From assembly GCA_009773805.1 (NCBI GenBank), contig WTXA01000002.1, forward strand, positions 744,001 through 808,000: DNA of 64,000 nt, written 5' to 3'. The notes below the pieces were generated by a model. That model saw nothing but the letters and a program-made list of their open reading frames with translations. It ran no database searches and had not been told where the DNA came from. Below, piece after piece: positions 29,270 through 57,318 of this stretch (positions are counted from its first letter, which is position 1; each line of letters starts with the position of its first letter). The stretch is from Fusobacteriota bacterium (GTDB lineage Bacteria > Bacillota > TC1). The position numbers and the translations under genes are program-made.

Positions 29270-29289
29270 AAAAAGGCTTTGGGGGCAAC

Positions 29290-31681: not shown

Positions 31682-31697
31682 GTTAAAGGAATTAATT

Positions 31698-32480: not shown

Positions 32481-32484
32481 TAAT

Positions 32485-33771: not shown

Positions 33772-33782
33772 TAGGGAGATAG

Positions 33783-34988: not shown

Positions 34989-35022
34989 TTAAATAGTAAA
35001 AATACAATGTTTGGAGTAAAAT

Positions 35023-36069
35023 ATGACGATTTATTATATATTATTATTACTTGTAGGGTTAATCTCAATATTTACATTTGGGATAAAAGATAAAAACAAA
35101 CGTAATTTGAATATTTTAGTAATTATTAGTTTTGCCATAATTATTTTACAAGGCCTTCGTAAATCAAGTGTAGGAGTAGATTTATTCGGGTATTTAAAAG
35201 CATTAGAGGTGGCTAAATTCTTAGATTTCGTACCTAGTGTAAAACTTTTGAACTATGAAGTAGGATACTTATTTTATTCGCAATTTTTTGCCAAGCTTAA
35301 TGTTCCAGATCAATTTTACATATTTATTGTAGCCGTAACAATTATTATGCCGATTACTTATATTTGGATTAAAAACACTAAGATGCCAGGATTAAGTGTT
35401 TTTATTTATTTAACTTTAGGATTTTTTACATTTACATTTTCTGGTTTAAGGCAATCTATTGCATTAGCTATAACATTTTTTAGCTTTAAGTATATACAAG
35501 AAAAGAAATTTGTAAAATTTTTATTATTAGTTTTATTGGCAATGTCTTTTCATACTTCGGCTATAGTTTTTATAATGGCTTATCCTTTGTATCATTTTAA
35601 ATTAAACCTATATCATTTTCTTTTTATAATACCTAGCCTAATAATTGTGTTTATATTAAAATCACAAATATTTGTCATTATATACAAAATATATAGAGGA
35701 TATAAGGGGGAGATAGAAGTTACAAATGCTTATACAATGTTAATTGTAATGATATTCGTGCTTATATTAGCTTATATTTTTGCAAACAAAGAAAAAACAA
35801 ATATAAATCTTAATGCCTATAGAAACTATATGCTTATTGCAATAATTTTTCAGATTTTTGCAAGTCAGTCCAATATGATAATGCGAGCAGGATATTATTA
35901 TTTCATTTTTATCACATTATTGCTACCAGAAGTTATACAAAGCCAACGTGATATAAAAATTAGAATTTTTTCCACTATTGTTGTAATTGCCTCATTGGTT
36001 ATTTTTTTTCAAGTGCAGACTGGTAGTGGATATTTAAATGTTAGTCCATATTATTTTTTTTGGGAGTGA
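35023..36069 (+). CDS. EpsG-family polysaccharide polymerase (Wzy-like)
   Basis: 348 residues, about ten hydrophobic helices. The segment FTFSGLRQSIALAITFFSFKYI followed by FVKFLLLVLLAMSFHTSAIVF (Arg-Gln then Ser-Phe-His-x-Ser) is the EpsG hallmark. It would polymerise the repeat units of block A outside the membrane. A second polymerase of a different type sits at 49929. Confidence 0.85.
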   Translation: MTIYYILLLLVGLISIFTFGIKDKNKRNLNILVIISFAIIILQGLRKSSVGVDLFGYLKALEVAKFLDFVPSVKLLNYEVGYLFYSQFFAKLNVPDQFYIFIVAVTIIMPITYIWIKNTKMPGLSVFIYLTLGFFTFTFSGLRQSIALAITFFSFKYIQEKKFVKFLLLVLLAMSFHTSAIVFIMAYPLYHFKLNLYHFLFIIPSLIIVFILKSQIFVIIYKIYRGYKGEIEVTNAYTMLIVMIFVLILAYIFANKEKTNINLNAYRNYMLIAIIFQIFASQSNMIMRAGYYYFIFITLLLPEVIQSQRDIKIRIFSTIVVIASLVIFFQVQTGSGYLNVSPYYFFWE

Positions 36070-36075
36070 GTTTTG

Positions 36076-37221
36076 ATGGATAATGAAATAAAGTATATCG
36101 GTTTCTATGATGTAGATGAATATATTCATCAAAATCGCAACACATTTTTAGCTGCAACTAATAAAATGAACTATATAGCTTTAGCTTTGGTAAAATCAGG
36201 TTATAAGGTAGATATAATATCACCATCATGGTCTGGTAATAAAAAAGGCTTTTATGAAGGTAGAAAAGAATTTATTGCCCAAAGTATAAGACTAATAGTT
36301 GGATCAACTTTTGGCGCACAAAATCGTATATTACGTTATTTTAGGATTTTTTGGTCTTGGTTATTTTTATTTATGTTTATATGTTTTAATACGAAAAAGG
36401 ATGAAAAAGTACTAGTTTATCATTCTATTATGTTAATGAAGCCTATTATGCTTGCTCAAAAATTCAAAAAATTCAAAATTATTTTAGAAGTTGAGGAAAT
36501 ATATCAGGATGTTGCTAAATTTATAGAGAAAACAAATAAAGATGAATTAAAATTTATCGAAAGTGCTAATAGATATATATTTCCTACAGAATTACTCAAT
36601 CAAAAATTAAACACAACAAACAAACCTTATACAATAATAACAGGAACATACCAAGTAGAAGATGACAGAAAAGATAAATACAATGATCACAATATCCATA
36701 TAATATATGCTGGAACATTTGATCCACGAAAAGGAGGAGCCTTAGCAGCAGCAGCAGCAGCAGAATACCTATCAGAAAATTACCATCTACACATCATAGG
36801 ATTTGGCTCGCAAGTTGACAAAAAAAATCTATTATTGAAGATAGAAGAAATATCAAAAAAAACAAAAGCAACAGTAACCTATGATGGGCTATTAAGTGGA
36901 GAAGAATACATCAGATTCATACAAAAATGCCAAATTGGACTAAGTACACAATCACCAGAAGCAGCCTACAATGAAACATCATTTCCATCAAAAATATTAT
37001 CATACATGGCCAATGGACTACGAGTGGTATCAATACGCATAAAAGCAATAGAAACATCTGAAATTGGAAATTCTGTATACTATTATGAAGAACCAAAACC
37101 AGAAGAAATTGCAAAAGCCATTATGGCGATCGATTTAAAAGAACCATATGATAGCAGAGAACTAATTAGAAAACTCGATAAGAAATTTAGAGAAAAAATA
37201 AAGGAACTATTGGAAAACTAA
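36076..37221 (+). CDS. GT-B glycosyltransferase
   Basis: 381 residues from ATG 36076 (GGGAGTGAG upstream; TTG 36073 also in frame). YIGFYDVDEYIHQNRN and NKMNYIALALVKSGYKVDIISPSW form the first half; HIIYAGTFDPRKGGALAAAAAAEYL and SFPSKILSYMANGLRVVSI the second, donor-binding half. The DNA style changes sharply near 36590: the first half is AT-rich with T-ending codons, the second half is A+C-rich on the coding strand. A GCAGCAGCAGCAGCA run (36747-36761 region) encodes the alanines. Confidence 0.82.
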   Translation: MDNEIKYIGFYDVDEYIHQNRNTFLAATNKMNYIALALVKSGYKVDIISPSWSGNKKGFYEGRKEFIAQSIRLIVGSTFGAQNRILRYFRIFWSWLFLFMFICFNTKKDEKVLVYHSIMLMKPIMLAQKFKKFKIILEVEEIYQDVAKFIEKTNKDELKFIESANRYIFPTELLNQKLNTTNKPYTIITGTYQVEDDRKDKYNDHNIHIIYAGTFDPRKGGALAAAAAAEYLSENYHLHIIGFGSQVDKKNLLLKIEEISKKTKATVTYDGLLSGEEYIRFIQKCQIGLSTQSPEAAYNETSFPSKILSYMANGLRVVSIRIKAIETSEIGNSVYYYEEPKPEEIAKAIMAIDLKEPYDSRELIRKLDKKFREKIKELLEN

Positions 37222-38580
37222 ATGACAAAACTAATAAACAAACTAAAAAACAGAATCAACAACCTAAACGAAAGCAATAAGAATATCCTATACAATACTA
37301 TTGGTGCGTTCACAATAAGAGGAGCGGCCCTATTTGTATCACTATATACAATGCCAGCCTACTTGAGATACTTTGATGACCAACTAGTATTAGGACTATG
37401 GTTTACTATGGTATCAGTTTTATCCTGGATACTTACCTTTGACCTAGGTATAGGTAATGGCCTAAGAAATCATTTAGTAACAACCTTAGTTAACAAAGAC
37501 AACATAGGAACAAAAAAATATATATCCTCAGCATATGTTGTAGTTGGAAGCATAGTATCAATAGTACTAATACTTTCTACCATATTCTTTAGATTCATAG
37601 ATTGGAACACTTTTTTTAATATATCAAAACAGATAGTTACCAAAGAAACCCTTAGCTTAACTGTATTCATAGTATTCACAGGAATAATGCTACAGTTTGC
37701 TACAAAGTTAATTACATCAATCCTCTATGCAATGCAAAGGTCGGCGCTAAACAATCTATTAAGCCTGCTAAGCAGTATAATAATATTGGTATATGTTTCC
37801 TTAGCAAAATCATCGAATATTTCAATCAATCTAATTTCATTAGCCTTAGTTAACGTACTAGCTGTAAACATACCATATATTATTGCTACTATACTAGTAT
37901 TTACTAAGAAACTAAAAGGATGCAAACCTGAACTAAAATTCTTCGATAAAAAATATGCGAAAAACGTACTCAAACTAGGCGGCATGTTTTTTATAGTTCA
38001 AATCACGTATATGATAATAACTGCAACAAATGAATTCTTAATAACCTGGCTAGCAAGCCCAGATAAGGTGGTTGAATATCAAATATATAACAAACTATTT
38101 CTACTAATTGGAACTATATTTACACTAGCACTAACGCCTATATGGTCAGCTGTAACAAAGGCTGTTTCAGAGGAAAACTTCACATGGATTAAAAAACTAT
38201 ATAGATCAATGATAATGTTGACTTTAGTTGCTGTAGTCTGTGAATTTGCCATGATACTTTTTTTGCAAGTTGTAATGAATTTCTGGTTAGGAGAAAATGC
38301 TATCCAAGTAAATTATGTATATGCTATAATATTTGCAATATCAGGTAGTATATTTATTTGGAATGCGGTAATTTCCAGTATGGTAAATGGTTTTGGTAAA
38401 TTAAAAGTACAAAGCATACTTTTCACCTTTGGGGCTATAATTAACATACCTCTTGCATGGTTCCTAGTTGGTATTTTTGAATCTTGGATAGGTGTCATAG
38501 TGGCGAATATATTAGCAATGAGTTTATATTGCATCATACAACCTATTATGATAAATAAATATTTAAAAGATAAAGGATAA
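37222..38580 (+). CDS. polysaccharide flippase (Wzx/oligosaccharide flippase family)
   Basis: 452 residues with about twelve to fourteen hydrophobic segments. It starts directly after the upstream stop (TAAATG). GAFTIRGAALFVSLYTMPAYL at the N-terminus, FDLGIGNGLRNHLV and LGGMFFIVQITYMIITATNEFLI match MATE/MVF-type flippases that move lipid-linked repeat units across the membrane. This is the only complete flippase in the window, so both capsule blocks may depend on it. It ends in a terminator. Confidence 0.88.
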   Translation: MTKLINKLKNRINNLNESNKNILYNTIGAFTIRGAALFVSLYTMPAYLRYFDDQLVLGLWFTMVSVLSWILTFDLGIGNGLRNHLVTTLVNKDNIGTKKYISSAYVVVGSIVSIVLILSTIFFRFIDWNTFFNISKQIVTKETLSLTVFIVFTGIMLQFATKLITSILYAMQRSALNNLLSLLSSIIILVYVSLAKSSNISINLISLALVNVLAVNIPYIIATILVFTKKLKGCKPELKFFDKKYAKNVLKLGGMFFIVQITYMIITATNEFLITWLASPDKVVEYQIYNKLFLLIGTIFTLALTPIWSAVTKAVSEENFTWIKKLYRSMIMLTLVAVVCEFAMILFLQVVMNFWLGENAIQVNYVYAIIFAISGSIFIWNAVISSMVNGFGKLKVQSILFTFGAIINIPLAWFLVGIFESWIGVIVANILAMSLYCIIQPIMINKYLKDKG

Positions 38581-38604
38581 AACGACTATTAACAATAGTC
38601 GTTT
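38578..38604 (+). terminator. intrinsic terminator inside the capsule region
   Basis: AACGACTATT (38581-38590), AAC, AATAGTCGTT and TT. Perfect 10-bp stem right after the flippase stop. It divides block A into two transcription units. Confidence 0.75.
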
Positions 38605-38662
38605 TCCATATATTATAGATTTGTTTACTCCAAGCAAATATGGTAAAATTATTGTTAGATAT

Positions 38663-38678
38663 AAATTGTATACAATTT
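38663..38678. promoter_or_regulatory. 16-bp perfect palindrome before the UDP-FucNAc genes
   Basis: AAATTGTATACAATTT is a perfect dyad in the 200-bp gap between the flippase terminator and capF. The inner TATACAAT could itself act as a -10 region (TACAAT 38671-38676), so a regulator here would cover the promoter. The rest of the gap shows nothing else clear. Confidence 0.45.
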
Positions 38679-38803
38679 AGAAATAAACTACAAAGAATCC
38701 TGGAATTGAGCACCACAAGAATAAGTAAGAGAGAGGGCTAATACAGGATTTAGATGTGCAAAAATATATGAACAATTACGGAAATAGAAAGGCTAGAAAC
38801 AAC

Positions 38804-39919
38804 ATGAAAATACTAATAACAGGAGCAAAAGGCTTCATAGGAAAAAACCTCGTAACAGAACTACGAAATAGAAAATACGAGGACATAATAGAATATGATA
38901 CAGACGACAAAATAGAAAGCTTGGAAGAGAGCTGCAAGGATATAGACTTTGTTTTTCATTTAGCAGGAGTCAACAGACCTTTAGATGTTGATGAATTCAT
39001 GCAAGGCAACTTTGGTTTCACTAGCCAATTATTGGATTTGTTTAAGAGCTGTGACAACACCTGCCCGGTAATGATCTCCTCCTCAATACAAGCCAAACTA
39101 GACAATGCCTACGGTATTAGCAAAAAAGCAGGAGAGGACCTTCTATTTACCTATGGTGGGGATACTGGAGCTAAGGTACTAGTATACAGATTCCCCAACG
39201 TCTTTGGGAAATGGAGCAGACCAAACTACAACAGCGCCATAGCAACCTTCTGTCACAATACTGCACATGGGATGGATATTGTTGTCAATGATCCAAGTGT
39301 GGTTATGAGTTTAGTATATATTGATGATGTTGTTGGTGAGCTGATAAGTGCATTAGAGGGTAGTGAGAATAGGGTTGAGGAGTTTTGTCAGGTTCCTGTT
39401 GTACATGAAGTAGAACTAGGAAAAATTGCAGAGTTGATAAGATCATTTAGTACAAGCAGAACTGAACTATCAATACCAGACATGAGTGATCTGTTTGTGA
39501 GTAAACTCTATAGTACTTACCTTAGCTTTCTACCAAAGGATAAGTTTAGTTATGAGTTAAATATGAATGTGGATAATAGAGGATCATTTACAGAATTTTT
39601 AAGGACTGAGGATAGGGGTCAAGTATCTATTAATGTATCTAAACCTGGGATAGTGAAAGGGAATCATTGGCATCATAGTAAGAATGAGAAGTTTCTTGTT
39701 GTTAGTGGAACAGGAGTAATCAGATTTAGAAGAGTTGATACAGATAATGAAGAAGTAATTGAGTATAGGGTAAGTGGAGACAAGTTGGAAGTGGTTGATA
39801 TACCAACTGGCTACACCCACAATATAGAGAATATTGGAGAAAATGACTTGGTCACAGTAATGTGGGCCAACGAACCATTCAACAAAGACAAACCAGACAC
39901 ACACTTTTTGGAGGTATAA
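38804..39919 (+). CDS. capF: UDP-2-acetamido-2,6-dideoxy-hexulose reductase, bifunctional SDR-cupin (CapF/FnlB-like)
   Basis: 371 residues from ATG 38804 (the GTG at 38756 only adds 16 non-family residues). The N-terminal SDR half shows KILITGAKGFIGKNL; the Tyr-Lys pair lies in NAYGISKKAGEDL. The C-terminal cupin half has KGNHWHHSKNEKFLVVSG with the metal-binding histidines. It catalyses the middle step from UDP-GlcNAc to UDP-N-acetyl-L-fucosamine. The coding strand switches between A+C-rich (start, about 39040-39250, 39780-end) and G+T-rich stretches (about 39280-39400, 39600-39780) within the gene. Confidence 0.88.
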   Translation: MKILITGAKGFIGKNLVTELRNRKYEDIIEYDTDDKIESLEESCKDIDFVFHLAGVNRPLDVDEFMQGNFGFTSQLLDLFKSCDNTCPVMISSSIQAKLDNAYGISKKAGEDLLFTYGGDTGAKVLVYRFPNVFGKWSRPNYNSAIATFCHNTAHGMDIVVNDPSVVMSLVYIDDVVGELISALEGSENRVEEFCQVPVVHEVELGKIAELIRSFSTSRTELSIPDMSDLFVSKLYSTYLSFLPKDKFSYELNMNVDNRGSFTEFLRTEDRGQVSINVSKPGIVKGNHWHHSKNEKFLVVSGTGVIRFRRVDTDNEEVIEYRVSGDKLEVVDIPTGYTHNIENIGENDLVTVMWANEPFNKDKPDTHFLEV

Positions 39920-39922
39920 CTA

Positions 39923-41047
39923 ATGAAAAAACTAAAAGTCATGACCGTAGTAGGCACAAGACCAGAAATTATAAGGTTATCAGCAGTTATTAATAGACTT
40001 GAGAATTGTGAAGCAATAGAGCATATTTTAGTACACACAGGCCAAAACTACGACTACGAACTAAACGAAGTATTCTTCAATGACTTCAAACTAAAAAAAC
40101 CAGACTACTTCCTAGAAGCTGCCAACGGCGGCTCGGTAGAAACAATAGGAAATATATTAATCAAAATAGACAAAGTTCTAGAAGAAGTTAAACCAGAAGC
40201 CTTCCTAGTACTAGGCGACACCAACAGCTGCTTATGCGCCATCGCAGCCAAAAGAAAACACATCCCAATCTTCCACATGGAAGCAGGCAACAGATGCTTT
40301 GACCAAAGAGTACCAGAAGAAACCAACAGAAAAATAGTCGACCACACAGCAGACATAAACCTGACCTATAGTGACATAGCCAGAGAATACCTCCTAAGAG
40401 AAGGCCTGCCAGCTGACAGAATAATAAAGACAGGCAGCCCAATGTTTGAAGTACTAGAAAGCAGAAAAAAGGACATAGAAAAATCAGACGTAATAGAAAG
40501 ACTAGGACTAGAAAACGGAAAATACTTTGTAGTATCTGCACACAGAGAAGAAAACATAAGCTCAGAAGAGAACTTTCTTGACCTCGTAGACAGCCTAAAT
40601 ACTATGGCAGAAATATATGGAATGCCAATAATAGTTAGTACCCACCCAAGAACTAAAAAAATGATAGAAGCCAAAGGCATAGAATTCAATCCATTGATTA
40701 GTACTATGAAACCACTAGGCTTCATTGACTATATAAAACTACAAAAATCTGCCAAAACAGTAATCAGCGACAGTGGAACCATCAGTGAAGAATCCTCCAT
40801 CCTAGGCTTCAAGGCACTAAACATTAGACAAGCTCATGAAAGACCTGAAGCAATGGAAGAAACCACAGTTATGATGGTAGGTCTAAAAAAGGAAAGATTA
40901 CTACAAGGATTAAAGGTACTAGAGTCTCAATCAGAAGGAGACTTAAGACAAGTAGCCGACTATAGTATGTCAAATGTATCTGAGAAAGTTTTAAGAATTA
41001 TTTTATCTTATACAAGTTATGTGAATAGGGTTGTTTGGGGCAAGTAA
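39923..41047 (+). CDS. capG: UDP-N-acetylglucosamine 2-epimerase type enzyme (CapG/FnlC-like)
   Basis: 374 residues. [19 protein letters not shown] (residues 5-23), [47 protein letters not shown] and [14 protein letters not shown] are those of non-hydrolysing 2-epimerases. Its position after capF and before capE makes it the last step to UDP-L-FucNAc. Most of the gene is strongly A+C-rich on the coding strand (39 of 60 bases in 40201-40260), but the last 80 bp turn G+T-rich. Confidence 0.88.
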
Positions 41048-41109
41048 AAATTCAGATTTTTATATTAGCTAATATACTTTCTAATATATTAGATTATTGG
41101 AGGAAAATG

Positions 41110-42129
41110 ATGTTTAAAAATAAAGTTTTATTAATTACTGGTGGTACTGGATCTTTTGGTAATGCTGTTATGAAAAGATTTTTAGACACTGATGTGAAAG
41201 AGATTCGTATATTTTCTCGTGATGAGAAAAAGCAAGATGATATGAGAAAAATATATAAAAACGATAAATTAAAGTTCTATATTGGTGATGTTAGAGATAT
41301 TAATAGTGTCAAGAATGCAATGCATGGGGTTGACTATATATTCCATGCTGCTGCTCTTAAACAAGTTCCATCATGTGAGTTTTTTCCGCTTGAAGCTGTT
41401 AAGACTAATGTGCTGGGTACTGATAATGTTTTGTCTAGTGCTATAGAGATGGGTGTTAAGAAGGTTATTTGTCTTTCTACTGATAAGGCCGCTTATCCTA
41501 TTAATGCTATGGGTATCTCTAAGGCTATGATGGAGAAGGTTTTTGTTGCTAAGTCTAGGATTGTCGAGGCTGATGAAACTTTGATATGTGGGACCAGGTA
41601 TGGTAATGTTATGGCATCGAGGGGTTCTGTTATTCCTTTGTTTATAGAGCAAATTAAGAATGGACAACCATTAACAATCACGGATCCTAATATGACTAGA
41701 TTTTTAATGAGTCTTGAAGAGGCTGTTGATTTAGTTATATTTGCGTTTGAGAATGCCAAGGCTGGTGATATTATGGTTCAGAAAGCGCCTGCTTGTACAA
41801 TAAGTGATTTAGCTCAAGCTCTGAGGGAGATTTTTAAGGTTGATAATGATATTAGGATTATTGGAACTCGTCATGGAGAGAAGTTGTGTGAAACATTGCT
41901 AACTAGAGAAGAGCATGTGGTTGCTATGGATATGGGTGGTTTTTATAGGGTTCCTGCCGATAAGAGAGATTTGAATTATGATAAATATTATGTTGAAGGT
42001 GATCAGAAGCTTTCTTCTGAGGTTGAGTATAACTCTCATAATACAAGAAGACTTAATATAGAGGAGATTAAAGAGAAGTTATTGGAGCTTGATTATGTTA
42101 GAGAGCAGTTGGAAGGTTGGAATAGGTAA
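41110..42129 (+). CDS. capE: UDP-N-acetylglucosamine 4,6-dehydratase/5-epimerase (CapE/FnlA-like)
   Basis: 339 residues from ATG 41110 (GGAGG six bases before; ATG 41107 possible). TGGTGSFGNAVMKRF (about residues 11-25), DVRDINSVKNAM, HAAALKQVPSCEFFPLEAVKTNV and the active-site Lys in LSTDKAAYPINAMGISKAMME are diagnostic. It makes the first intermediate from UDP-GlcNAc. With capF and capG it completes UDP-L-FucNAc synthesis. Its coding strand is G+T-rich, unlike capG. Confidence 0.9.
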   Translation: MFKNKVLLITGGTGSFGNAVMKRFLDTDVKEIRIFSRDEKKQDDMRKIYKNDKLKFYIGDVRDINSVKNAMHGVDYIFHAAALKQVPSCEFFPLEAVKTNVLGTDNVLSSAIEMGVKKVICLSTDKAAYPINAMGISKAMMEKVFVAKSRIVEADETLICGTRYGNVMASRGSVIPLFIEQIKNGQPLTITDPNMTRFLMSLEEAVDLVIFAFENAKAGDIMVQKAPACTISDLAQALREIFKVDNDIRIIGTRHGEKLCETLLTREEHVVAMDMGGFYRVPADKRDLNYDKYYVEGDQKLSSEVEYNSHNTRRLNIEEIKEKLLELDYVREQLEGWNR

Positions 42130-42197
42130 TATTTGAGTTTAATATAGTTTCAAAGCTTAAGTAGCAGTTTTTAAAACAACATGCGAAAGGAGCATCA

Positions 42198-42319
42198 ATG
42201 AACATACTAGTAAAAGGGGAAGCCGGATACATAGGATCACACACCTGTGTAGAACTACTAAAAGCAGGACACACAGTAATGACGACATGTTAAAAGATGC
42301 TTGGAACTTCAAAAAATAA
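42198..42319 (+). pseudogene. galE: internally deleted UDP-glucose 4-epimerase gene
   Basis: ATG 42198, with AAAGGAG upstream, begins MNILVKGEAGYIGSHTCVEL and LKAGHTV, the exact start of GalE (one Gly of GGAGYIGS changed to Glu). After about 28 codons the frame jumps. From 42284 in another frame DMLKDAWNFKK and stop match a GalE C-terminus. About 900 bp have been lost. The remnant is A+C-rich like capG. It is the last coding trace of block A. Confidence 0.85.
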
Positions 42320-42345
42320 TTAAAATAATTATTAGTAGAATTTTA

Positions 42346-42390
42346 TAGATTAATGTGAAAAACGACCATTAGATAGTGGTCGTTTTTGTA
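42346..42390 (+). terminator. terminator, duplicate of the one at 54595-54636
   Basis: Stem AAAAACGACCA / TGGTCGTTTTT (42358-42368 and 42377-42387). The whole stretch ATAGATTAATGTGAA plus stem recurs at 54595 with only a few changes. Each copy precedes a pst copy on the other strand, so this one marks the old right end of block A. Confidence 0.85.
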
Positions 42391-42471
42391 GTGTGTAGTT
42401 ATTAGTGAGTCTGTAAAAAATGTCATTTTCTTTCACCTTCCCTATTTAGATTATACAAAGGGTTCGGAAGT

Positions 42472-42729
42472 TTACACTAGCTAAGACGAATAAGACCATC
42501 TTTAAAACCTGGAATGGAAGCAGTAGGAACATAACAATAGAAAAGACAATAATCGATGCTAATACAACATGTAAGATAGAGTTTTTGATTTTTCTTTTCT
42601 GATGTTTTATTATTGGGGTAATGAAAGTCAAAGCGAAGAAACCATAAACTATTGAAGGTATACCAGCTAAAAGTTCAAGGATTGGATTAATGACCTTTCT
42701 AGCTTTTTTTTATTCATGATTCCTCCAAC
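42472..42729 (-). pseudogene. decayed pstC-pstA remnant
   Basis: Read on the - strand. 42729-42700 matches the first bases of pstC with its GGAGG ribosome site. 42700-42603 matches pstC about codons 110-140 ([21 protein letters not shown]-like region). 42600-42472 matches the start of pstA ([23 protein letters not shown]). The intact genes are at 55544-57302. The order is kept, but most of each gene is gone and stops interrupt the frames. A 61-codon open frame (42631-42446) is a chance fusion of the two fragments. Confidence 0.85.
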
Positions 42730-42804
42730 TTTTTGGGGTCAATGCACTTGGATTACCTTTGCTTTAAAACTCTATAATTATAACAAATAATTTTCATGAA
42801 CGAT

Positions 42805-42833
42805 TTGAAAGAGTAGTTGAATTGTGATATAAT
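42805..42833 (+). promoter_or_regulatory. strong promoter before block B
   Basis: TTGAAA (42805-42810), 17-bp spacer, TATAAT (42828-42833). It lies between the pst remnant and the LCP remnant and would drive the capD-like gene at 43070 with a long leader. The rest of 42730-42900 has no other recognisable feature. Confidence 0.65.
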
Positions 42834-42900
42834 AAATTCGTTATTCTTAATGGATAAATTATATGATTTCAGAAAGTATATAATAGAGAAAAGAGCTAAT

Positions 42901-43035
42901 ATTGGGAATAAGAACTAAAAAAGTATATTAATAAAAAGAAATTTTTTAATAAGTTTGTATATGTACAAGTACTTTTAGGATCTATGGGAAAAGTGGGAAT
43001 TAATATCTAAGTATATTTACTTAGATCAAAAATAA
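42901..43035 (+). pseudogene. decayed LCP gene
   Basis: 42954-43001 reads FVYVQVLLGSMGKVGI, against FVYLQLLLGSMEKVEI in the intact LCP gene at 27146 (12 of 16 identical). Then, out of frame, 43006-43035 reads SKYIYLDQK and stop, against SKYIYFDQK and stop. The start TTGGGAA at 42903 also resembles the intact start. About 850 bp of the middle are missing. Confidence 0.85.
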
Positions 43036-43069
43036 TTGTAGATTACTTGTTTAGAGGAGTAGGTGAATA

Positions 43070-44935
43070 ATGGGGATAAATATGTTTTTTAGACGTTTTT
43101 GGATGATGCTGGTTGATATTATTTTAGTTAATGTATCTTATGTTGTAGCAGTTTTGTTGTACGCCAATTATAATTGGTCAAATATTTCTTTTATGAATAT
43201 GTTTCGTTATTTTGCTGTTGTTAGTGTAATTATTATTTTAGTTTTTAATATTTTTAGTTTATATAACAATATTTGGATTTATGCAGGAATCCATGAAGTG
43301 ATTAGGATATTAGGAGCAAATATTTTAAGCTTTATCATGATGACTTCTGTGTTTTCAATTATTGGTAGTGGGATTCCTCTAAATATTCATATCATTGCCT
43401 GGGTATTTATGTTTTTCTTTTCTGGTTTTTTCAGATTTTCATTCAGGTTGATTTCTTCTTATGGAAATATGAGAAGAAAGATGACTAGTGCTCCAAAACG
43501 TGTATTGATCATTGGCGCCGGACAGGCTGGTGTACTTTGCCTTAGAGACATGAAATTAAATGTTGGTCTTGGATATCTACCGGTAGCATTAATTGATGAC
43601 AATGTTTCAAAACATGGTAGTTATATTTCTGGTGTTAAGGTCATAGGTGGCAGAGAAAGTATTGGACCTGTTGTTAAGAGTATGGGTATTAATCTAATAC
43701 TATTGGCTATTGCAAGTATCGATCCTGAAAACAAGAAGGAAATTTTAAATATTTGCAAGAAAACAGGTTGTGAAGTTAAAATTATGCCTAATATTGTTAA
43801 TTTGCTTAGTGATAAAGTTGGGCTTGGGAATTTGAGAGAGGTTAATCTTGAGGATCTTCTTGGTCGTAATCCTGTTTCATTAGATAGGGAAACAACTGAT
43901 AAGTATATTAAGGGTAAGGTTGTTTTGGTTACTGGGGCTGCAGGTTCTATAGGATCACAGCTTTGTCGTGATATTTTGGTACACCGTCCTAAGGAATTGA
44001 TTGTTCTTGATATTTCTGAGAATTGTGTGTTTAATCTTGAGCATGAGTTTAATAATCTGAAGTCTGGTGTTAAGATATCTTACGTGATTGCTTCTATTAG
44101 AGACAAGAGAAAGTTGGAACTGGTTTTTGCTAAATACAGACCGAATTTGGTTTTCCATGCGGCTGCTTTAAAGCATGTGCCTTTGATGGAGCAAAATCCT
44201 GGAGAGGCTATTAAGACCAATGTCCTTGGTACTATGAAATTAGCTCAGGTGGCTGATGCTTACGGTGTTGGTAAGTTTGTGATGATTAGTAGTGATAAGG
44301 CTGTTAACCCTGTTAATGTTATGGGTGCTACTAAGAGGATTTGTGAGATTTATTTAACTGCTCTTAATGAAAGAAGTAAGACTGAGTTTGTAGCGGTGCG
44401 TTTTGGTAATGTGCTTGGTAGTGCTGGTTCTGTTGTTCCTTTATTCTTGGATCAGATAAGAGCTGGTGGTCCTGTTACTATTACAAGTAAGGAAATGACG
44501 AGGTTTTTTATGACTATTCCTGAAGCTTCTGAGTTGGTATTAGAGGCTGGATCCTATGCTAAGGGTGGAGAGGTCTTTATTCTTGATATGGGTAGTCCAG
44601 TTAAGATTTATGATTTGGCTTATGATTTGATTTGGTTGTCTGGTCTTCGTCCTTTTAAGGATATTGATATTAAGGTAACTGGTCTTCGTCCTGGTGAGAA
44701 GCTTTATGAAGAGACTTTACTAGAAGAAGAGGGCTTGTCCTTGACTGCTAATGATAAGATTTTTGTTACTAATCCTGTTAAGTATGATTTTGATGAACTT
44801 ACACAAAAGGTTGAAGGATTTATTCCTTTGTTGGAGTTTGAGGAACGTGAGTTGATAATTCAGCAGATTGAGTCTTTGGTTTGGTCCTATACTAGGTTTG
44901 AAGATGTTAAGGTTTTTGAGGAAGTAGTTTCTTAG
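43070..44935 (+). CDS. capD: membrane nucleoside-diphosphate-sugar dehydratase (CapD/PglF-like)
   Basis: 621 residues. Four N-terminal membrane helices (about 8-135), a first Rossmann-like domain (RVLIIGAGQAGVLCLRD, about 145), then the catalytic SDR domain: VLVTGAAGSIGSQLCRDIL (about 284), HAAALKHVPLMEQNPGEAIKTNV and SSDKAVNPVNVMGATKR with the active-site Lys. It converts UDP-GlcNAc to the 4-keto-6-deoxy sugar used by the initiating transferase next door. GAGGAG stands before ATG. The coding strand is G+T-rich. A dead copy of its start is at 28162. Confidence 0.9.
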   Translation: MGINMFFRRFWMMLVDIILVNVSYVVAVLLYANYNWSNISFMNMFRYFAVVSVIIILVFNIFSLYNNIWIYAGIHEVIRILGANILSFIMMTSVFSIIGSGIPLNIHIIAWVFMFFFSGFFRFSFRLISSYGNMRRKMTSAPKRVLIIGAGQAGVLCLRDMKLNVGLGYLPVALIDDNVSKHGSYISGVKVIGGRESIGPVVKSMGINLILLAIASIDPENKKEILNICKKTGCEVKIMPNIVNLLSDKVGLGNLREVNLEDLLGRNPVSLDRETTDKYIKGKVVLVTGAAGSIGSQLCRDILVHRPKELIVLDISENCVFNLEHEFNNLKSGVKISYVIASIRDKRKLELVFAKYRPNLVFHAAALKHVPLMEQNPGEAIKTNVLGTMKLAQVADAYGVGKFVMISSDKAVNPVNVMGATKRICEIYLTALNERSKTEFVAVRFGNVLGSAGSVVPLFLDQIRAGGPVTITSKEMTRFFMTIPEASELVLEAGSYAKGGEVFILDMGSPVKIYDLAYDLIWLSGLRPFKDIDIKVTGLRPGEKLYEETLLEEEGLSLTANDKIFVTNPVKYDFDELTQKVEGFIPLLEFEERELIIQQIESLVWSYTRFEDVKVFEEVVS

Positions 44936-44947
44936 AGGAGTTTAATT

Positions 44948-45565
44948 ATGGTTTATATGTATTTTAAGAGGTTCTTAGACTTAGTTTTTTCTTTATTGGG
45001 ATTAATTATTCTATTTCCTTTATTCTTATTTTTGATTATTTTTATTAAGCTAGATTCTCCTGGTCCGGTTCTCTTTAAACAGAAGAGAGTTGGTATTAAT
45101 AAGAAATATTTTAATATATTGAAGTTTAGGACTATGCGTATTGATACGCCTATGGACACGCCAACCCATTTGCTGGAAAATCCTGATCAGTGGATAACTA
45201 AGGCTGGCAGGTTTTTAAGAAAGACTAGTTTGGATGAACTGCCCCAGATTATTAATATTATCAAGGGAGAAATGAGTATAATTGGACCTAGACCTGCTTT
45301 GTGGAATCAAGATGATTTGATTGCAGAGAGGGACAAGTATGGTGCTAATAGTGTGCCTGTTGGTCTTACTGGCTGGGCACAGATTAATGGTAGAGATGAG
45401 CTTGAGATTGAAGTTAAGGCTAAACTTGATGGAGATTATGTTGAGAAGATTGGGTTAATGATGGATGTCAGATGCTTCTTTGGAACAGTGGTAAAGGTGC
45501 TGAGGACTGATGGTATTGTTGAAGGCGGAACTGGCAAGAAAAAGTCGGATGAAGAAAAGAGGTAG
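44948..45565 (+). CDS. initiating sugar-phosphate transferase (bacterial sugar transferase family)
   Basis: 205 residues. One N-terminal hydrophobic hairpin (about 8-30), then KLDSPGPVLFKQKRVGINKKYF, KFRTMR, RFLRKTSLDELPQIINIIKGEMSIIGPRP and PGLTGWAQ-like VGLTGWAQINGRDE. This small PglC/WecA-independent type moves a sugar-1-phosphate to undecaprenyl phosphate and starts each repeat unit. It is the only intact initiating transferase in the window, so both capsule blocks may depend on it. AGAGGAG is upstream. Confidence 0.92.
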   Translation: MVYMYFKRFLDLVFSLLGLIILFPLFLFLIIFIKLDSPGPVLFKQKRVGINKKYFNILKFRTMRIDTPMDTPTHLLENPDQWITKAGRFLRKTSLDELPQIINIIKGEMSIIGPRPALWNQDDLIAERDKYGANSVPVGLTGWAQINGRDELEIEVKAKLDGDYVEKIGLMMDVRCFFGTVVKVLRTDGIVEGGTGKKKSDEEKR

Positions 45566-45572
45566 ATGAGAA

Positions 45573-46706
45573 ATGAAGAGAGTACTTATAACAGGAGGGG
45601 CTGGCTTTATAGGAAGTAACCTAGCTTTAAAACTATTAAATAGAGGGTATGAAGTAACTGTAATAGATAATTTGAATAAACAAATTCATGGTGAAGACCC
45701 AGACAAATCTTACACTTACAATCTAATAAAGGGTAAGGTGAATTTTATAAAAGGTGACGTGAACAATATACAAGATTGGAAAAAAGCATTAGAAGATGTG
45801 AATATAGTAGTGCACTTAGCTGCTGAAACAGGAACTGGACAATCTATGTATGAAATCAACAAGTATATAGATTCAAATATTGGAGGTACGTCAAAGCTTC
45901 TTGAACTTTTAACAAACGAGCAACATAAAGTAGAGAAGTTAATTGTAGCTGCTTCAAGAGCAGTTTATGGTGAAGGAAAGTTTGAGTGTGAAAAACACGG
46001 TATTGTGTATCCTAAGTCACGACTAGAGGAGGATATGTCAAAAGGAGATTTTGAAGTAAAATGTCCTATTTGTAAAAATATGGTAACTATGTTACCAACC
46101 GATGAAGAATCTGCTCTTCATCCTACATCTGTATATGGTTTTACAAAGCAAGCACAAGAGCAATTGTGTATGATTGTTGGAACATCAATCAAATTACCAG
46201 TAGTAGCTTTTAGATTTCAGAATGTATATGGTCCTGGACAGTCATTGAAAAACCCATACACGGGAATTTTGTCTATTTTTTCAACAAGAATCAAAAATAG
46301 TAATGACATCAATATTTTCGAAGATGGATATGAAACAAGAGATTTTGTATATATTGATGATATAACTGACGCAATAATATTAGGTATAGAAAATGATAAT
46401 GCTAATTTCAAGGTTTTTAATGTCGGATCTGGTGAAAAAATCGATGTATTAACTGTAGCAAACACATTAAAGAATAAGTATGGTACAAATGTACAAATTA
46501 ATGTTTCCGGTAATTATCGACTAGGAGATATTAGACATAATTTAGGTGATTTATCATATATAAAAGAGAATTTAAACTATGAACCTAAAGTATCTTTTAA
46601 GCAAGGTATTTCAAATTTTGTTGACTGGGTTGAAAAACAAGAAATTGAAGCAGATAATTATGAAAAGTCTATTCAAGAAATGAAAGATAAAGGGTTATAT
46701 AAGTAA
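45573..46706 (+). CDS. NAD-dependent epimerase/dehydratase with a Cys insert (dTDP-rhamnose 4-epimerase-like)
   Basis: 377 residues, extended SDR. RVLITGGAGFIGSNLALKLL (residues 3-22), HLAAETGTGQSM, catalytic YGFTK (about 191) and RDFVYIDDIT. Between the core strands there is an insert with CEKHGIVYPKSRLEED and VKCPICKNM; the CxxC and nearby Cys could bind zinc. Similar inserts occur in dTDP-L-rhamnose 4-epimerases, which fits the dTDP-rhamnose genes at the end of block B, but other sugars are possible. Confidence 0.8.
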   Translation: MKRVLITGGAGFIGSNLALKLLNRGYEVTVIDNLNKQIHGEDPDKSYTYNLIKGKVNFIKGDVNNIQDWKKALEDVNIVVHLAAETGTGQSMYEINKYIDSNIGGTSKLLELLTNEQHKVEKLIVAASRAVYGEGKFECEKHGIVYPKSRLEEDMSKGDFEVKCPICKNMVTMLPTDEESALHPTSVYGFTKQAQEQLCMIVGTSIKLPVVAFRFQNVYGPGQSLKNPYTGILSIFSTRIKNSNDINIFEDGYETRDFVYIDDITDAIILGIENDNANFKVFNVGSGEKIDVLTVANTLKNKYGTNVQINVSGNYRLGDIRHNLGDLSYIKENLNYEPKVSFKQGISNFVDWVEKQEIEADNYEKSIQEMKDKGLYK

Positions 46707-47722
46707 TGGATACTGATATCACATCTCTTAAAGGGAAAAGAATATTGTTTTTGGCTCCTGTATTTTTCGGATATGAGTTAAAAATAAAACTTAAGATGGA
46801 AGAAATGGGTGCGATAGTTGATTTTTATGATGTAAGATCAGTTACTAGTGCCAAAGCGAGAGCATTATTAAAGATATCTCCCAATATTTTTATAAATAAA
46901 ACCAATAAGTATTATGAGGATATCTTAAGAAATAATCATGATAAAAATTATGATTATATTTTTATTGTTAAATGCGATATGATAACAAGTAAAATTTTAG
47001 AACATATGAAAACAACATTTAAAGGTGCTAAATTTTGCTTATACTTATGGGATTCTGTTAATAATATTCCTGGTGTAAAGTCTAAATTAAAGTACTTCGA
47101 TAGAATACTTTCCTTTGACAGAATTGACTCAAATAAATTTAATGAGATAGTTTTTAGACCTTTATTCTATTTGGATGAGTATAAAAAAAATGAGAATAAT
47201 GATGATTCAATTGTTAATGGAATTGACTTAAGTTTTCTTGGGACTATGCATTCAGACAGATATGCAATTATAAAAAAAATTGAAGAGATCTGCAGAGAAA
47301 ATGATATTAAATTATTTACTTTTAAATACCTTCAAAGCAAATTTGTTTATTATCTTTATAAGATGACCAAGAAAGAGTATAGAAATACCAAACTAAGTGA
47401 TTTTTCATTTGAAAAAATGAATGGGAATGATATTTCAAGCATAGTAAGTAAGTCAAAAGTGATTCTAGATATAGAACATCCTAAACAGACAGGACTTACA
47501 ATGAGAACGATAGAAATGATTGGAATGAAGAAAAAAATAATTACTACGAATAAAGATATTATTAACTATGATTTTTATAACTCTCAAAACATAGTTATTA
47601 TAGATAGAAATAATATAAAATTACCATTAAATTTCTTTGAAAGTGAATATATGCCACTAGATAAAGAAATATATGAGAAGTATAGTATTCAAAATTGGAT
47701 AAAAAATATCTTGTTAAGTTGA
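46706..47722 (+). CDS. GT-B-like glycosyltransferase (CgeB-type), tentative
   Basis: 338 residues. KGKRILFLAPVFFGYELKIKLKMEEMG opens a Rossmann-like half; a middle DLSFLGTMHSDRYAIIKKI and a final DIEHPKQTGLTMRTIEMIGMKKKIITTN (with the E-helix and T/R contact) resemble GT-B enzymes of the CgeB/glycosyltransferase-1 type. Start overlaps the previous stop (TAATG). Role in adding a capsule sugar is inferred from the context. Confidence 0.65.
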   Translation: MDTDITSLKGKRILFLAPVFFGYELKIKLKMEEMGAIVDFYDVRSVTSAKARALLKISPNIFINKTNKYYEDILRNNHDKNYDYIFIVKCDMITSKILEHMKTTFKGAKFCLYLWDSVNNIPGVKSKLKYFDRILSFDRIDSNKFNEIVFRPLFYLDEYKKNENNDDSIVNGIDLSFLGTMHSDRYAIIKKIEEICRENDIKLFTFKYLQSKFVYYLYKMTKKEYRNTKLSDFSFEKMNGNDISSIVSKSKVILDIEHPKQTGLTMRTIEMIGMKKKIITTNKDIINYDFYNSQNIVIIDRNNIKLPLNFFESEYMPLDKEIYEKYSIQNWIKNILLS

Positions 47723-47742
47723 TTAGATTGGAGTAGATGAAT

Positions 47743-48321
47743 ATGCGAAATGAGTATACGATATCAGAAGCAATTAAACTATTTTATTCTTTAGTGATAA
47801 CAAAGTTGTTTTATAGAAATGCACGATTAATTCGTCAACCTTTTTATATAAGAGGGAAAAGTAGTATGAAATCAGGTCATAAACTAACTACAGGTTATAA
47901 CTGTAGATTTGATCTACCAGGAAACAACAAAAAGACTTTGTTTATTGGGAAAAACTGTGAAATTGGCGACAATGTGCATTTTGTGGCACATGAAAAATTA
48001 ATTATCGGTGACAATGTCTTAATGGCCTCTAAGATATTTATAAGTGATACAAATCATGGTGATTATTCTGGTAGTAAACAATCTTCACCTAGCACACCTC
48101 CCAATAGCAGATCACTAACTACGAAACCGGTTATAATTGGCGATAATGTTTGGATTGGTGAAAACGTATGCATACTTCCTGGAGTTACAATAGGTGAAGG
48201 CAGCATTATTGGTGCAAACTCTGTTGTTAATAAAGATATTTCAGCTAATTGTATAGCTGTTGGTGTTCCTGCTAAAGTAGTCAAAAAGTATGACAGTGCT
48301 AAAGCTGGCTGGTTAAAATGA
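47743..48321 (+). CDS. left-handed beta-helix acetyltransferase
   Basis: 192 residues from ATG 47743, nine bases after GGAG (ATG 47737 is also in frame but only three bases away). Hexapeptide repeats cover about 50-185: IGKNCEIGDNVHFVAHEKLIIGDNV, then NHGDYSG and VIIGDNVWIGENVCILPGVTIGEGSIIGANSVV. It is a trimeric acyl-CoA-dependent O-acetyltransferase that decorates a capsule sugar. Confidence 0.9.
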   Translation: MRNEYTISEAIKLFYSLVITKLFYRNARLIRQPFYIRGKSSMKSGHKLTTGYNCRFDLPGNNKKTLFIGKNCEIGDNVHFVAHEKLIIGDNVLMASKIFISDTNHGDYSGSKQSSPSTPPNSRSLTTKPVIIGDNVWIGENVCILPGVTIGEGSIIGANSVVNKDISANCIAVGVPAKVVKKYDSAKAGWLK

Positions 48322-48349
48322 TTACTTGTCATGTTTGGAGGATTATTGA

Positions 48350-49156
48350 TTGAATATTCTAATAGTAGTTGTTATTTACAATAAACGAATTAATGAAATT
48401 AAATATATCGAAGAAATTAAAAGTGCGGATATATTAATATACGATAATTCCAAAAATTCACAAAATAAGCCTGATGGTGCCTATTATTATCATAATGAAA
48501 ATAATGGTGGTGTAAGTATGGCTTACAATTATGGGATAAATTTGGCAATTAAACTCCAAAAGGATTTTATAATATTATTAGATCAAGATACTAGTTTTGA
48601 TGAAGAAATTCTAGATAAATATTATGGTTATGCAAAGGAATTTGGGAAAAGTTATATTTATGCTCCAATTGTAAAAAATGGAGTGAGAATATATTCTCCA
48701 TATATAGAAGGTATGTTCAAAAATTATCCGCAAAATACAAATGATTTTAATTATGATAAAATATACAATATTGAAGAGAAATCTTTAATAAATAGCGGAA
48801 TGATGATTCCGTTAGATATTATTAGTGATATCGGACCTTTTAAAGAAGATATTAAACTTGATTTTAGTGATACATACTTTGTAGAAAAGTATAAGAAGCA
48901 ATTTAAAGAAGTAATTCTCATGGACGTTTTTTTAGAACACAAGCTGTCTGGAGATGAAGGTAAAAACAAACAAAAAGAACTATCCAGATTCAAGTATTAT
49001 TGTAATGGAGCCAAAGTATATAAAAATACTACTAATAATATAAAAAGAGTAAATAGATTAGTTTTTTTTCGTATGTTACGTTTAATAACTAAATATAAAA
49101 CATTAATACCTATTTCAATATTTAAAGACTATTTTTTAGGAGATTTAAGAATATGA
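48350..49156 (+). CDS. family 2 glycosyltransferase (rhamnosyltransferase-like)
   Basis: 268 residues from TTG 48350, eight bases after TTTGGAGG. NILIVVVIYNKRINE, then IYDNSKNS, NNGGVSMAYNYGINLA and ILLDQDTSF give the GT-A site with a DQD motif, as in rhamnosyltransferases of the RfbF type. That fits dTDP-rhamnose made by the genes at 51255-54589. It overlaps the next gene by 4 bp. Confidence 0.88.
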   Translation: MNILIVVVIYNKRINEIKYIEEIKSADILIYDNSKNSQNKPDGAYYYHNENNGGVSMAYNYGINLAIKLQKDFIILLDQDTSFDEEILDKYYGYAKEFGKSYIYAPIVKNGVRIYSPYIEGMFKNYPQNTNDFNYDKIYNIEEKSLINSGMMIPLDIISDIGPFKEDIKLDFSDTYFVEKYKKQFKEVILMDVFLEHKLSGDEGKNKQKELSRFKYYCNGAKVYKNTTNNIKRVNRLVFFRMLRLITKYKTLIPISIFKDYFLGDLRI

Positions 49157-49863
49157 AGATATCCGTATGTATGGCATCTTATAACGGAGAGATGTATATA
49201 AGAGAGCAAATCGAATCAATATTAAAACAACTTAAAGATAATGATGAATTAATTATTTCGGATGATAATTCTAGTGATAAAACAAGGGCTATTGTAGAAG
49301 ATATTAAAGACCATCGTATTAAATTTGTTTTAAATAAAGGTGAAAAGGGATATACAAGGAATTTTGAGAATGCATTGAAAGAGTCAAGTGGGGATATAAT
49401 ATTTCTTACTGATCAAGATGATGTTTGGGTTGATAATAAAGTAGTAATAATGCTAAAGCATTTAGAAAACTCTGATATGGTTGTAAGCAATGCAAAAATT
49501 GTTGATGCCCAATTAAAAGTTATACACGACTCACATTTTTTTCTACATAATGTAAAAAAGGGATTTTGGAATAACTTTCTAAAAACGAGGTATATTGGTG
49601 CATGTATGGCTTTTAAAAGAAATGTTCTATCGAGAGCTTTGCCATTTCCTAAGAATCAAAAGTATTGCGCTCATGATTATTGGTTAACAATTGTTAGTGA
49701 AGCATATTTTAAAGTTTCAATAGAGGATACTCCATTATTGTTATATAGGAGACATGATAAAAATGCTTCTACAGGTGGAGAAATTAGTCAAAACAGTTTC
49801 TTGTTTAAAGTGCTTGTAAGAGTATATTGTTTGTTTAATCTTTTAAAGCTGATTCCAAGATAA
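49153..49863 (+). CDS. family 2 glycosyltransferase
   Basis: 236 residues. KISVCMASYNGEMYIREQIESIL, ISDDNSSDKT, YTRNFENALKESSGDIIFLTDQDDVW and HDYWLT. The DQDD motif and HDYW acceptor motif are typical of GT2 enzymes of capsule and O-antigen loci. The ATG overlaps the stop of the preceding GT2 gene. Confidence 0.9.
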   Translation: MKISVCMASYNGEMYIREQIESILKQLKDNDELIISDDNSSDKTRAIVEDIKDHRIKFVLNKGEKGYTRNFENALKESSGDIIFLTDQDDVWVDNKVVIMLKHLENSDMVVSNAKIVDAQLKVIHDSHFFLHNVKKGFWNNFLKTRYIGACMAFKRNVLSRALPFPKNQKYCAHDYWLTIVSEAYFKVSIEDTPLLLYRRHDKNASTGGEISQNSFLFKVLVRVYCLFNLLKLIPR

Positions 49864-49879
49864 AAAATCTGACTAATTA

Positions 49880-49908
49880 GCATATCTGAATAAAGAATTA
49901 AGATATGC
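49880..49908 (+). promoter_or_regulatory. leader hairpin before the polymerase gene
   Basis: GCATATCT (49880-49887) and AGATATGC (49901-49908) form a perfect 8-bp stem with a 13-nt loop, just before the ribosome site AAAGGAGG of the following gene. It could tune translation or stabilise the mRNA end. There is no T-run, so it is not a classical terminator. Confidence 0.4.
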
Positions 49909-49928
49909 AGACAGAAAGGAGGCTTTAC

Positions 49929-51242
49929 TTGACCAAAGATGTAAGTGATATAGGTTTAATTAATACAAAAAAGGATAGTGAAAATCAAAAAAAACTTAGC
50001 TTTTTAGCAATTATTGTTGTTATTGAATTAGTGCTTGGTGGTAGTGGAAGATTAATCACTTTTGGTTCTTTTTTCTCTATTAGATACATACTATTCTTCA
50101 TTACTTTATTATATTTTATTTTAAATTGTATATTTAATAATTATACAATAAAGAAGAATATGTTTTATTTTGATATAATACTATTTTTTTATGTGTTTGC
50201 TTTTGCTATAGCAAATGGAATAGTCAGTGGCTATGAAATTGCTGATGTTATAAAATCATCTCAAGGATATTTATATTTATTAATATATTTCCCAATATCT
50301 TTGCTAATAGATAATAAACAAAAATCAAAACAAATTTTCAGGTTAATTATAAATTGTGCAGTTGTTTTAGCATTAGTATCTATAACAATATTTGTGATAT
50401 ATTATTTTGATAGTACTAAGTATAATGTATTTACGCCAATATTAGATAAATTAGATTATGGTTATATTGCATATCGAGGTGGTCTTCCAACAGTTTTTTT
50501 AAAGACAAGTCCTTTTATCGCAATATCATTTGTACTTTTATTAGTTCATTACATCAATCTGAAAAAAGAGAGAAACCTTGTAAATACTTTGAAATTATCA
50601 ATTCTTTTATTTGGAATTATTGTTACAATGTCAATGGGTATATGGATAGGAACCTCCGTGGGTATACTGTTGACTATAATGTTATCAAGAGGTAAAAACA
50701 AGATATTTGGGCTAACTATTGTTATATTATTGATGGGTTTTGCTTATTACCTTGCATCAGATTATATAAGTGTATCTATAACTAATCGTTTAAGCAGCAA
50801 TGACAGCAGCTTCATTATTAAGTTTGATCAATTTTTCATGTTGGTTAAGAATTGGTTAAATAAATTAGTATTAGGTAATGGATTTGGAATAGAGATTACC
50901 TTTTTAACTGAGTTAGGCAAGAGAACAATGATAAATTTTGAGCTATTCTGGCTTCAATTATTAGTAAATATGGGCTTGATAGGATTTATTATATATTTAA
51001 AGATTTTTATAAAATCCATTTATTATTCTTTCAAAAAAAATAATGCAATTAACTTCAAGGATTCACTTCATATAAAATCATTAATTATAGGATTAATAGT
51101 TTTAGTAATAATTTCATCTGTAAATCCTTTTTTAAATAATCCTATAGGCATTGGTTATTTAGTTATTGTTATGAATACTATAAGCAATTATTGGAAAGAT
51201 AATGGTTTGAATGAAAATAAAATAATAAAAGAAATATTTTAG
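49929..51242 (+). CDS. O-antigen ligase/polymerase-like membrane protein (Wzy)
   Basis: 437 residues from TTG 49929, six bases after GGAGG; the in-frame ATG 49905 puts the ribosome site inside the gene. About ten to eleven hydrophobic helices and a large loop (about 230-340 with NGFGIEITFLTELGKRTMINFELFWLQLLVNMG). This layout matches Wzy polymerases. It is a different type from the EpsG protein at 35023, suggesting that two distinct polymers, or a hybrid locus, are encoded. Confidence 0.8.
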   Translation: MTKDVSDIGLINTKKDSENQKKLSFLAIIVVIELVLGGSGRLITFGSFFSIRYILFFITLLYFILNCIFNNYTIKKNMFYFDIILFFYVFAFAIANGIVSGYEIADVIKSSQGYLYLLIYFPISLLIDNKQKSKQIFRLIINCAVVLALVSITIFVIYYFDSTKYNVFTPILDKLDYGYIAYRGGLPTVFLKTSPFIAISFVLLLVHYINLKKERNLVNTLKLSILLFGIIVTMSMGIWIGTSVGILLTIMLSRGKNKIFGLTIVILLMGFAYYLASDYISVSITNRLSSNDSSFIIKFDQFFMLVKNWLNKLVLGNGFGIEITFLTELGKRTMINFELFWLQLLVNMGLIGFIIYLKIFIKSIYYSFKKNNAINFKDSLHIKSLIIGLIVLVIISSVNPFLNNPIGIGYLVIVMNTISNYWKDNGLNENKIIKEIF

Positions 51243-51254
51243 GAGGAAGTAAAA

Positions 51255-52154
51255 TTGAAAGGTATTGTTTTAGCAGGAGGCTCAGGAACAAGATTATATC
51301 CATTAACAATGGTAACTAGTAAGCAGTTGTTACCAGTATATGACAAACCAATGATTTATTATCCGTTATCAGTTCTAATGTTGGCGGGAATAAAAGAAAT
51401 ATTAATAATTTCAACACCTCAAGATTTGCCAAATTTTGAGAAGCTTTTAGGAGACGGTACTCAATTTGGTATAAGCCTTGAGTATGCTGAGCAGCCATCT
51501 CCAGATGGTTTAGCTCAAGCTTTTATCATTGGTGAAGAGTTTATAGGTGATGATGATGTGGCGATGGTTTTAGGCGATAATATTTATTACGGAAATGGAT
51601 TTACACCTATTTTAAAGGAAGCTGCTGAAGATGCTAAAAAGGGAAAAGCAACTATCTTTGGATATTATGTTCACGATCCAGAACGCTTCGGTATTGTGGA
51701 GTTTGACGAAAACGGAAAGGTTCTCTCAGTTGAAGAAAAACCTAAGAATCCCAAATCAAACTATTGTATAACAGGACTTTACTTTTATGACAAGAGAGTT
51801 GTTGACTTTGCCAAAAAAGTAAAGCCCTCACATAGAGGAGAACTTGAAATAACAGACTTAAATAGAATGTACTTAGAAGATGAAACGCTTAATGTAAAAC
51901 TATTAGGACGTGGATTTGCTTGGTTAGATACTGGAACTATGGATAGTTTAGTTGAAGCTGCAGAATTCGTTCAAATGATTGAAAAGAGACAAAGCATTAA
52001 AATTGCAGCACTTGAAGAAATTGCATACCATAATGAATGGATAGATAAAGAAACTCTCTTAGCATCAGCGAAAAAGTACGGCAAATCACCTTACGGAGAA
52101 CATTTGAAGAAAGTTGCTAAAGATAAAATTTATTATCAAAAAGTGGGGATGTAA
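51255..52154 (+). CDS. rfbA: glucose-1-phosphate thymidylyltransferase
   Basis: 299 residues, TTG start after [24 protein letters not shown] (residues 3-18), [26 protein letters not shown] and [13 protein letters not shown]. RmlA makes dTDP-glucose from dTTP and glucose-1-phosphate. First of four tightly linked dTDP-rhamnose genes; rfbC starts right at its stop. Confidence 0.96.
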
Positions 52155-52706: not shown

Positions 52707-52724
52707 GAAAGTGGTGATTTTATA

Positions 52725-54594: not shown

Positions 54595-54636
54595 ATAGAT
54601 TAATGTGAACGCGACCACTAGATAGTGGTCGCTTTT
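54595..54636. terminator. terminator at the end of the capsule region
   Basis: GCGACCACTA (54611-54620) and TAGTGGTCGC (54623-54632) with TTTT, so the practical loop is TAGATA. The preceding ATAGATTAATGTGAA and the stem recur at 42346-42387. Confidence 0.85.
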
Positions 54637-54671
54637 GATTTTAGTGCAGTGTATCATTGTTTTTTAAGTTA

Positions 54672-55532: not shown

Positions 55533-55543
55533 TGTTCTACCCC

Positions 55544-56416: not shown

Positions 56417-56417
56417 T

Positions 56418-57302: not shown

Positions 57303-57318
57303 GATTCCTCCAAACGGC

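Follow-up and report, generated by a model that had tools for sequence, protein, structure and literature searches.

Two blocks of capsule genes are separated by a chain of gene remnants

The window, by which we mean the whole 64-kb stretch of DNA analysed here, holds two blocks of capsule (cps) genes, A and B, between an LCP (LytR-CpsA-Psr) gene on the left and a pst operon on the right. The 940-nt gap between the blocks (42130-43069) is a chain of relics over its whole length: galE, a hairpin, pst, the end of an IS3-family element, a promoter-like site and an LCP stub, with capD coming next. The features are listed from left to right.

27146-28129, + strand: intact LCP gene, which closes the shared wzd-wze-cpsB-LCP set (PF03816, E 9.4e-44)
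28162-28213, + strand: capD start stub, 84.6% of 52 nt identical to the capD start (E 1.5e-10)
28240-28315, + strand: tentatively, what is left of the C-terminus of a priming sugar transferase
28340-42129, + strand: block A, with glycosyltransferases, pyruvyl transferase, EpsG-type polymerase, flippase (37222-38580) and capF-wecB-fnlA
42198-42320, + strand: galE stub, the first 28 codons and then a possible C-terminal scrap (TIGR01179 positions 1-28 at 42201-42284, E 2.4e-6)
42345-42388, no strand assigned: hairpin copy, a possible bidirectional terminator, 89% identical to 54595-54637 (z -4.9); the original lies between rmlD and pstB
42476-42728, - strand: pst operon stub, comprising the pstA start, part of pstC and the pstC start, colinear with 56263-57313
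42724-42746, + strand: right terminal repeat (23 nt) of an IS3-family element whose body is lost, 22/23 nt identical to a copy in the congener G001
42805-42833, + strand: promoter-like site oriented towards block B, with the boxes TTGAAA-17-TATAAT and a TG ahead of the -10 (11/12 matches, best of 8 in the region)
42894-42953, + strand: weak candidate for a worn N-terminal part of the LCP stub (6/500 shuffles)
42954-43035, + strand: LCP stub
43070-54589, + strand: block B, with capD, priming transferase (44948-45565), glycosyltransferases, Wzy and rmlACBD, and without a flippase
43070-44935, + strand: capD-like gene (Polysacc_synt_2), with which the intact genes of block B begin (PF02719, E 3e-114)
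54672-58274, - strand: the pst operon in intact form, just right of block B

Several gene names in this list are our assumptions. The subunit letters of the pst operon are presumed; Pfam yields only ABC transporter, permease and binding-protein domains. The name rmlB is likewise presumed, the gene having only a below-cutoff match to the galE profile, and the C-terminal galE scrap was named by eye rather than by family search.

The interiors of the two blocks differ. Comparison of A with B at the DNA level yields two matches only, 52 nt (the capD stub) and 50 nt between the starts of sugar-enzyme genes, and their proteins are similar at the family level only. Because A and B share only these two short stretches, they represent two different loci in tandem and not one locus copied twice.

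The genes for shared functions are divided between the blocks. The chain-length, kinase, phosphatase and LCP genes occur once in the window, in front of A; the kinase gene has a single match in the whole genome, and one further, more distant LCP gene lies elsewhere. The priming transferase family PF02397 has one match in the genome, in block B. The flippase family PF01943 has two, a weak one below the cut-off in block A and, outside cps, a 551-aa protein with counterparts in three congeners (G001, G003 and G004); the counts cover PF02397 and PF01943, and remote relatives outside both families could exist. In G003, a related block B (10 genes, 57-94% identity) is followed by an ORF that matches PF01943 over the cut-off, and block B in the window's genome may therefore have lost a flippase. 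Judging from gene content, A would need B for initiation and B would need A for export. A capD scan of genome contigs returned 16 loci, the best from Selenomonas at 42-44% identity, and no near relative.

A short match of another kind lies in block A, where its first glycosyltransferase gene ends: 29173-29206 is 97% identical over 34 nt, with an exact 26-nt core, to an arsR-like stub in G004 (C28, about 72370-72403). This stretch reads sensibly in the glycosyltransferase frame.

An LCP pseudogene precedes block B

The sequence-only reading had proposed a dead LCP gene at 42901-43035, and our analysis bears this out. The stub consists of two pieces, 42954-42994 and 42996-43035, which lie in different frames and are colinear with the intact LCP gene. 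It amounts to about 27 codons, too few for a phylogeny, with codons about 45-58 fused to the last 13. Approximately 770 bp of the gene are gone between 42994 and 42996, an internal deletion that removes residues about 59-314, including those of the PF03816 match at 100-243. The first piece is identical to 27278-27318 at 80% of 41 nt, and the second (42996-43034) to 28090-28128 at 90% of 39 nt (E 2.4e-9). In dinucleotide shuffles, the observed score was reached in 0/500 cases for the whole span, 0/500 for the first piece and 0/500 for the second. With its colinearity to the intact gene, its broken frame and the loss of the catalytic domain, the LCP stub is a pseudogene.

The residue counts in the earlier reading were also correct. 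Our recount confirms 12 of 16 residues at the internal site (FVYVQVLLGSMGKVGI versus FVYLQLLLGSMEKVEI), and the 8 of 9 residues at the C-terminus lie within a longer run in which 11 of the last 12 match. The similarity of the DNA that follows both LCP copies, up to the start of capD, holds as well: the match runs on through the spacer into the capD start, with 42996-43120 and 28090-28213 80% identical in a gapped alignment of 127 columns (E 3e-27, for 1.4 kb compared with 0.6 kb). Two parts of the alignment are weak when taken alone, namely 42894-42953 as the LCP N-terminus, whose score was reached by 6/500 shuffles, and the 34-nt LCP-capD spacer, reached by 42/500. No other gene family fits the stub better. 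Its nearest LCP gene is that of its own genome (90% of 39 nt, versus 79-82% over 34-38 nt for the LCP genes of relatives).

A mirror image of this arrangement, absent from the sequence-only reading, lies behind the intact LCP gene, where a stub of the capD start remains; none of 500 shuffles reached the score of 28165-28213. The possible priming transferase stub beyond it (28240-28315) is weak: its match to the protein encoded at 44948 was reached by 12/1000 residue shuffles, and its matches to the G004 and G003 homologues by 188 and 250/1000.

Remnants of galE, pst and an IS3-family element lie left of the LCP stub

The relics of pst, galE and the IS3-family element had likewise gone unrecorded. 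The galE profile match falls short of the TIGR01179 family cut-off, as does every other match in the window's genome, and a terminator scan did not pick the hairpin at 42345-42388. The pst stub keeps the order and orientation of the intact operon, with identities of 81% of 142 nt for the pstA start, 91% of 107 nt for the pstC part and 24/24 nt for the pstC start. Over the pstC part it is closest to the pst of its own genome, at 97/107 nt, compared to 85, 83 and 85/107 nt for G004, G003 and G001; the intact pst of this genome matches that of G004 at 91/107 nt. The closeness of the stub to its own pst suggests that the two loci were joined after the split from the species of G004, G003 and G001, or that the donor was a close one.

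The LCP stub does mark the left side of block B, as the earlier reading held, but we place the seam proper to its left, at 42724-42747, where the pst stub ends (42728) and the IS3 repeat has its outer tip (42746). The 147 nt from the IS end to the LCP stub (42747-42893) have no match beyond scraps in the loci searched, and shuffles gave no link between them and the wzd-LCP or pst regions.

The join was once occupied by an IS3-family element, presumably of the IS150 type. The 17-nt core of the repeat, allowing up to 1 mismatch, occurs twice in the genome and 0 times when read backwards. The other copy in this genome (contig C1) and a copy in G003 follow IS3 transposase ORFs (NF033516, E 6e-75 and 2e-70). 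Each of the three copies in G001 is no more than about 125 bp from a contig end, as is usual for repeated elements in draft assemblies. No second IS relic was found in the 64-kb window, and the opposite end of the element is lost. The IS3 end shows the presence of an element at the join, not that IS3 made the tandem; the element could instead have inserted into a pst copy that was already decaying.

The only other IS3 end found in this genome (L118, 884-1525) lies behind a 200-aa transposase ORF. This ORF matches only the last 195 of 369 profile positions, so the element there looks truncated.

The stretch is best explained as a worn seam between two merged loci

Both shared ends of a capsule locus are present at the internal seam, as a pst stub and an LCP stub in the order and orientation expected of a tandem merodiploid. 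We think it likely that two different capsule loci merged in tandem here, that their shared genes were then pruned reciprocally, and that the stretch is the worn remainder of their seam. Each locus would once have run LCP - capD - [transferase - glycosyltransferases...] - terminator - pst, with pst on the reverse strand. The two would have come to lie head to tail, as is shown by the stubs of both shared ends, which lie colinear between the blocks, with locus A between LCP and the first pst and locus B between the second LCP and the second pst. The duplicated unit would extend beyond LCP to the entire capsule locus, from LCP to pst. The IS3-family element probably supplied the homology or the transposition for the tandem. 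Internal deletions would then have pruned the duplicates, namely pst at the end of A, capD at the start of A and LCP before B; the stubs themselves are there to be read, and we infer the order and cause of the deletions. The priming transferase was perhaps also pruned at the start of block A. At the end of A, galE would have been pruned as well, though it is not known to have been duplicated.

The resulting locus would be a composite: a single chain-length/kinase/phosphatase/LCP set, a single priming transferase (in B), a single flippase within the locus (in A) and two polymerases. The promoter-like site in the seam could transcribe block B past the inherited hairpin. A and B together may then make two repeat units with common initiation and export machinery, or one hybrid polymer.

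The genome might instead simply have duplicated one capsule locus in tandem and later exchanged one of the two interiors. This would also leave stubs whose identities to the intact genes (80-91%) fit a single event, and a pst stub closest to the genome's own pst. The interiors of A and B are unrelated, however, so this account requires the acquisition of foreign genes as a second step anyway, and we regard it as improbable though worth keeping in view. Block A might also have entered a native locus by transposition or recombination, landing between its LCP and capD genes. Such an insertion would explain why LCP lies left of A and capD right of it, yet it does not predict stubs of pst, LCP and capD, all of which are present and would each have to be an independent capture; we judge it very unlikely.

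Short matches are common in AT-rich DNA, and we saw several at E 0.1-0.4. A resemblance by chance or an assembly artefact is nonetheless an explanation to which we give almost no credence: the relics are several, colinear and have E values from 5e-5 to 4e-38, the stubs are diverged, unlike a misjoin of identical sequence, and the contig is 861 kb long.

Relation to known capsule duplications

Capsule loci are usually described as changing by replacement. A seam in which both shared ends can be read records addition instead, and it opens a concrete way to test if two products persist after such a merger or become a single one. In Haemophilus influenzae type b, the capsule locus is flanked by IS1016 and duplicated, with near-identical copies; the present locus is likewise an IS-linked tandem, and here the interiors differ.

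In pneumococci, PMC3784515 describes tandem-duplication merodiploids of S. pneumoniae made by transformation, with a hybrid IS861 repeat at the join, which was not at the capsule locus, and says that the structures of two-capsule merodiploids had remained undefined. Older two-capsule pneumococci (Austrian and Bernheimer 1959; Munoz 1997) are cited in PMC3784515 and PMC3541774. These binary encapsulated pneumococci resemble the present locus in having two capsule gene sets in one cell. In contrast to the pneumococcal merodiploids, the tandem here is heterologous, old and pruned to stubs.

L. plantarum WCFS1 has four cps clusters, of which cps1 and cps3 are without a priming transferase; it was suggested that the other clusters could supply it, and deletions show that all of the clusters are active (PMC3539956). 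A capsule gene set without its own priming transferase is what these clusters and the present locus have in common. The passages on these clusters describe no merger seam, stubs or IS end, and they give cps1 its own wzx and wzy. Our literature search on merged or tandem capsule loci and their remnants returned no title describing a seam of this kind. Capsule merodiploids are known in kind, and the stubbed seam is a variant in which the pneumococcal tandem and the idea of the borrowed transferase come together at a natural, worn junction. Such mergers could be found simply, by the stubs of shared or flanking genes that they leave within polysaccharide loci.

The capsule site varies within the genus, and a second seam is present

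We searched four congeners (G001, G002, G003 and G004) in addition to the window's genome (G000). The site between an ADP-ribosylglycohydrolase gene plus a small membrane-protein gene on one side and pst on the other is variable in the genus. The small gene (24399-24695) is presumably DUF2892-like. The site is nearly empty in G001, with only a cpsB-like gene, and holds about 30 kb of cps in G004; in G003, one contig carries cps beside pst and a second contig carries block-B-like genes. In G002, the site between the glycohydrolase gene and pst was not located. Neither an unpruned tandem nor A or B alone at the site was found in the genomes searched. In G001, G002, G003 (C34) and G004, the LCP genes of this type are found away from cps, and only G000 shows LCP next to capD, so the LCP-capD unit is not the norm of the genus.

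A seam comparable to that of G000 is present in G004 (C28, 53644-55458). It starts with a stub of the small gene of the left flank (87% of 127 nt) and a reversed IS3 relic (79% over 92 columns), continues with the N-terminal half of capD, a wzx fragment (88% of 137 nt) and a wzd stub (74% of 84 nt), and ends with a cpsB scrap (84% of 31 nt, E 0.002) before an intact capD. Stacking with stubs is therefore seen in two of the four genomes in which the site was located (G000, G001, G003 and G004); G003 is split into contigs there and cannot be judged. A tentative extension of the merger reading is that IS3-family tandem stacking of capsule loci with reciprocal pruning may be a route by which the genus repeatedly arrives at new surface polymers, and that in the present case, where A would be unable to start a polymer and B unable to export one, it may have produced an obligately chimeric pathway. 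The readable seam, together with its recurrence in a second species, makes the fate of merged capsule loci testable.

Three further observations concern the surroundings of the site. In G003, a block-B-like set (L033, 1-14391) lies on the opposite side of the glycohydrolase gene compared to the window, beside an inverted LCP end at the contig edge; this position suggests that modules have moved by other routes too. In G004, two capD copies follow one another (L078, 14010-17285), the first cut to its N-terminal half with the wzx piece directly after it. Also in G004, a worn copy of an arsR-family gene (L079, 12173-12480; 69% over 322 columns) lies between cps and pst, with the intact gene across pst.
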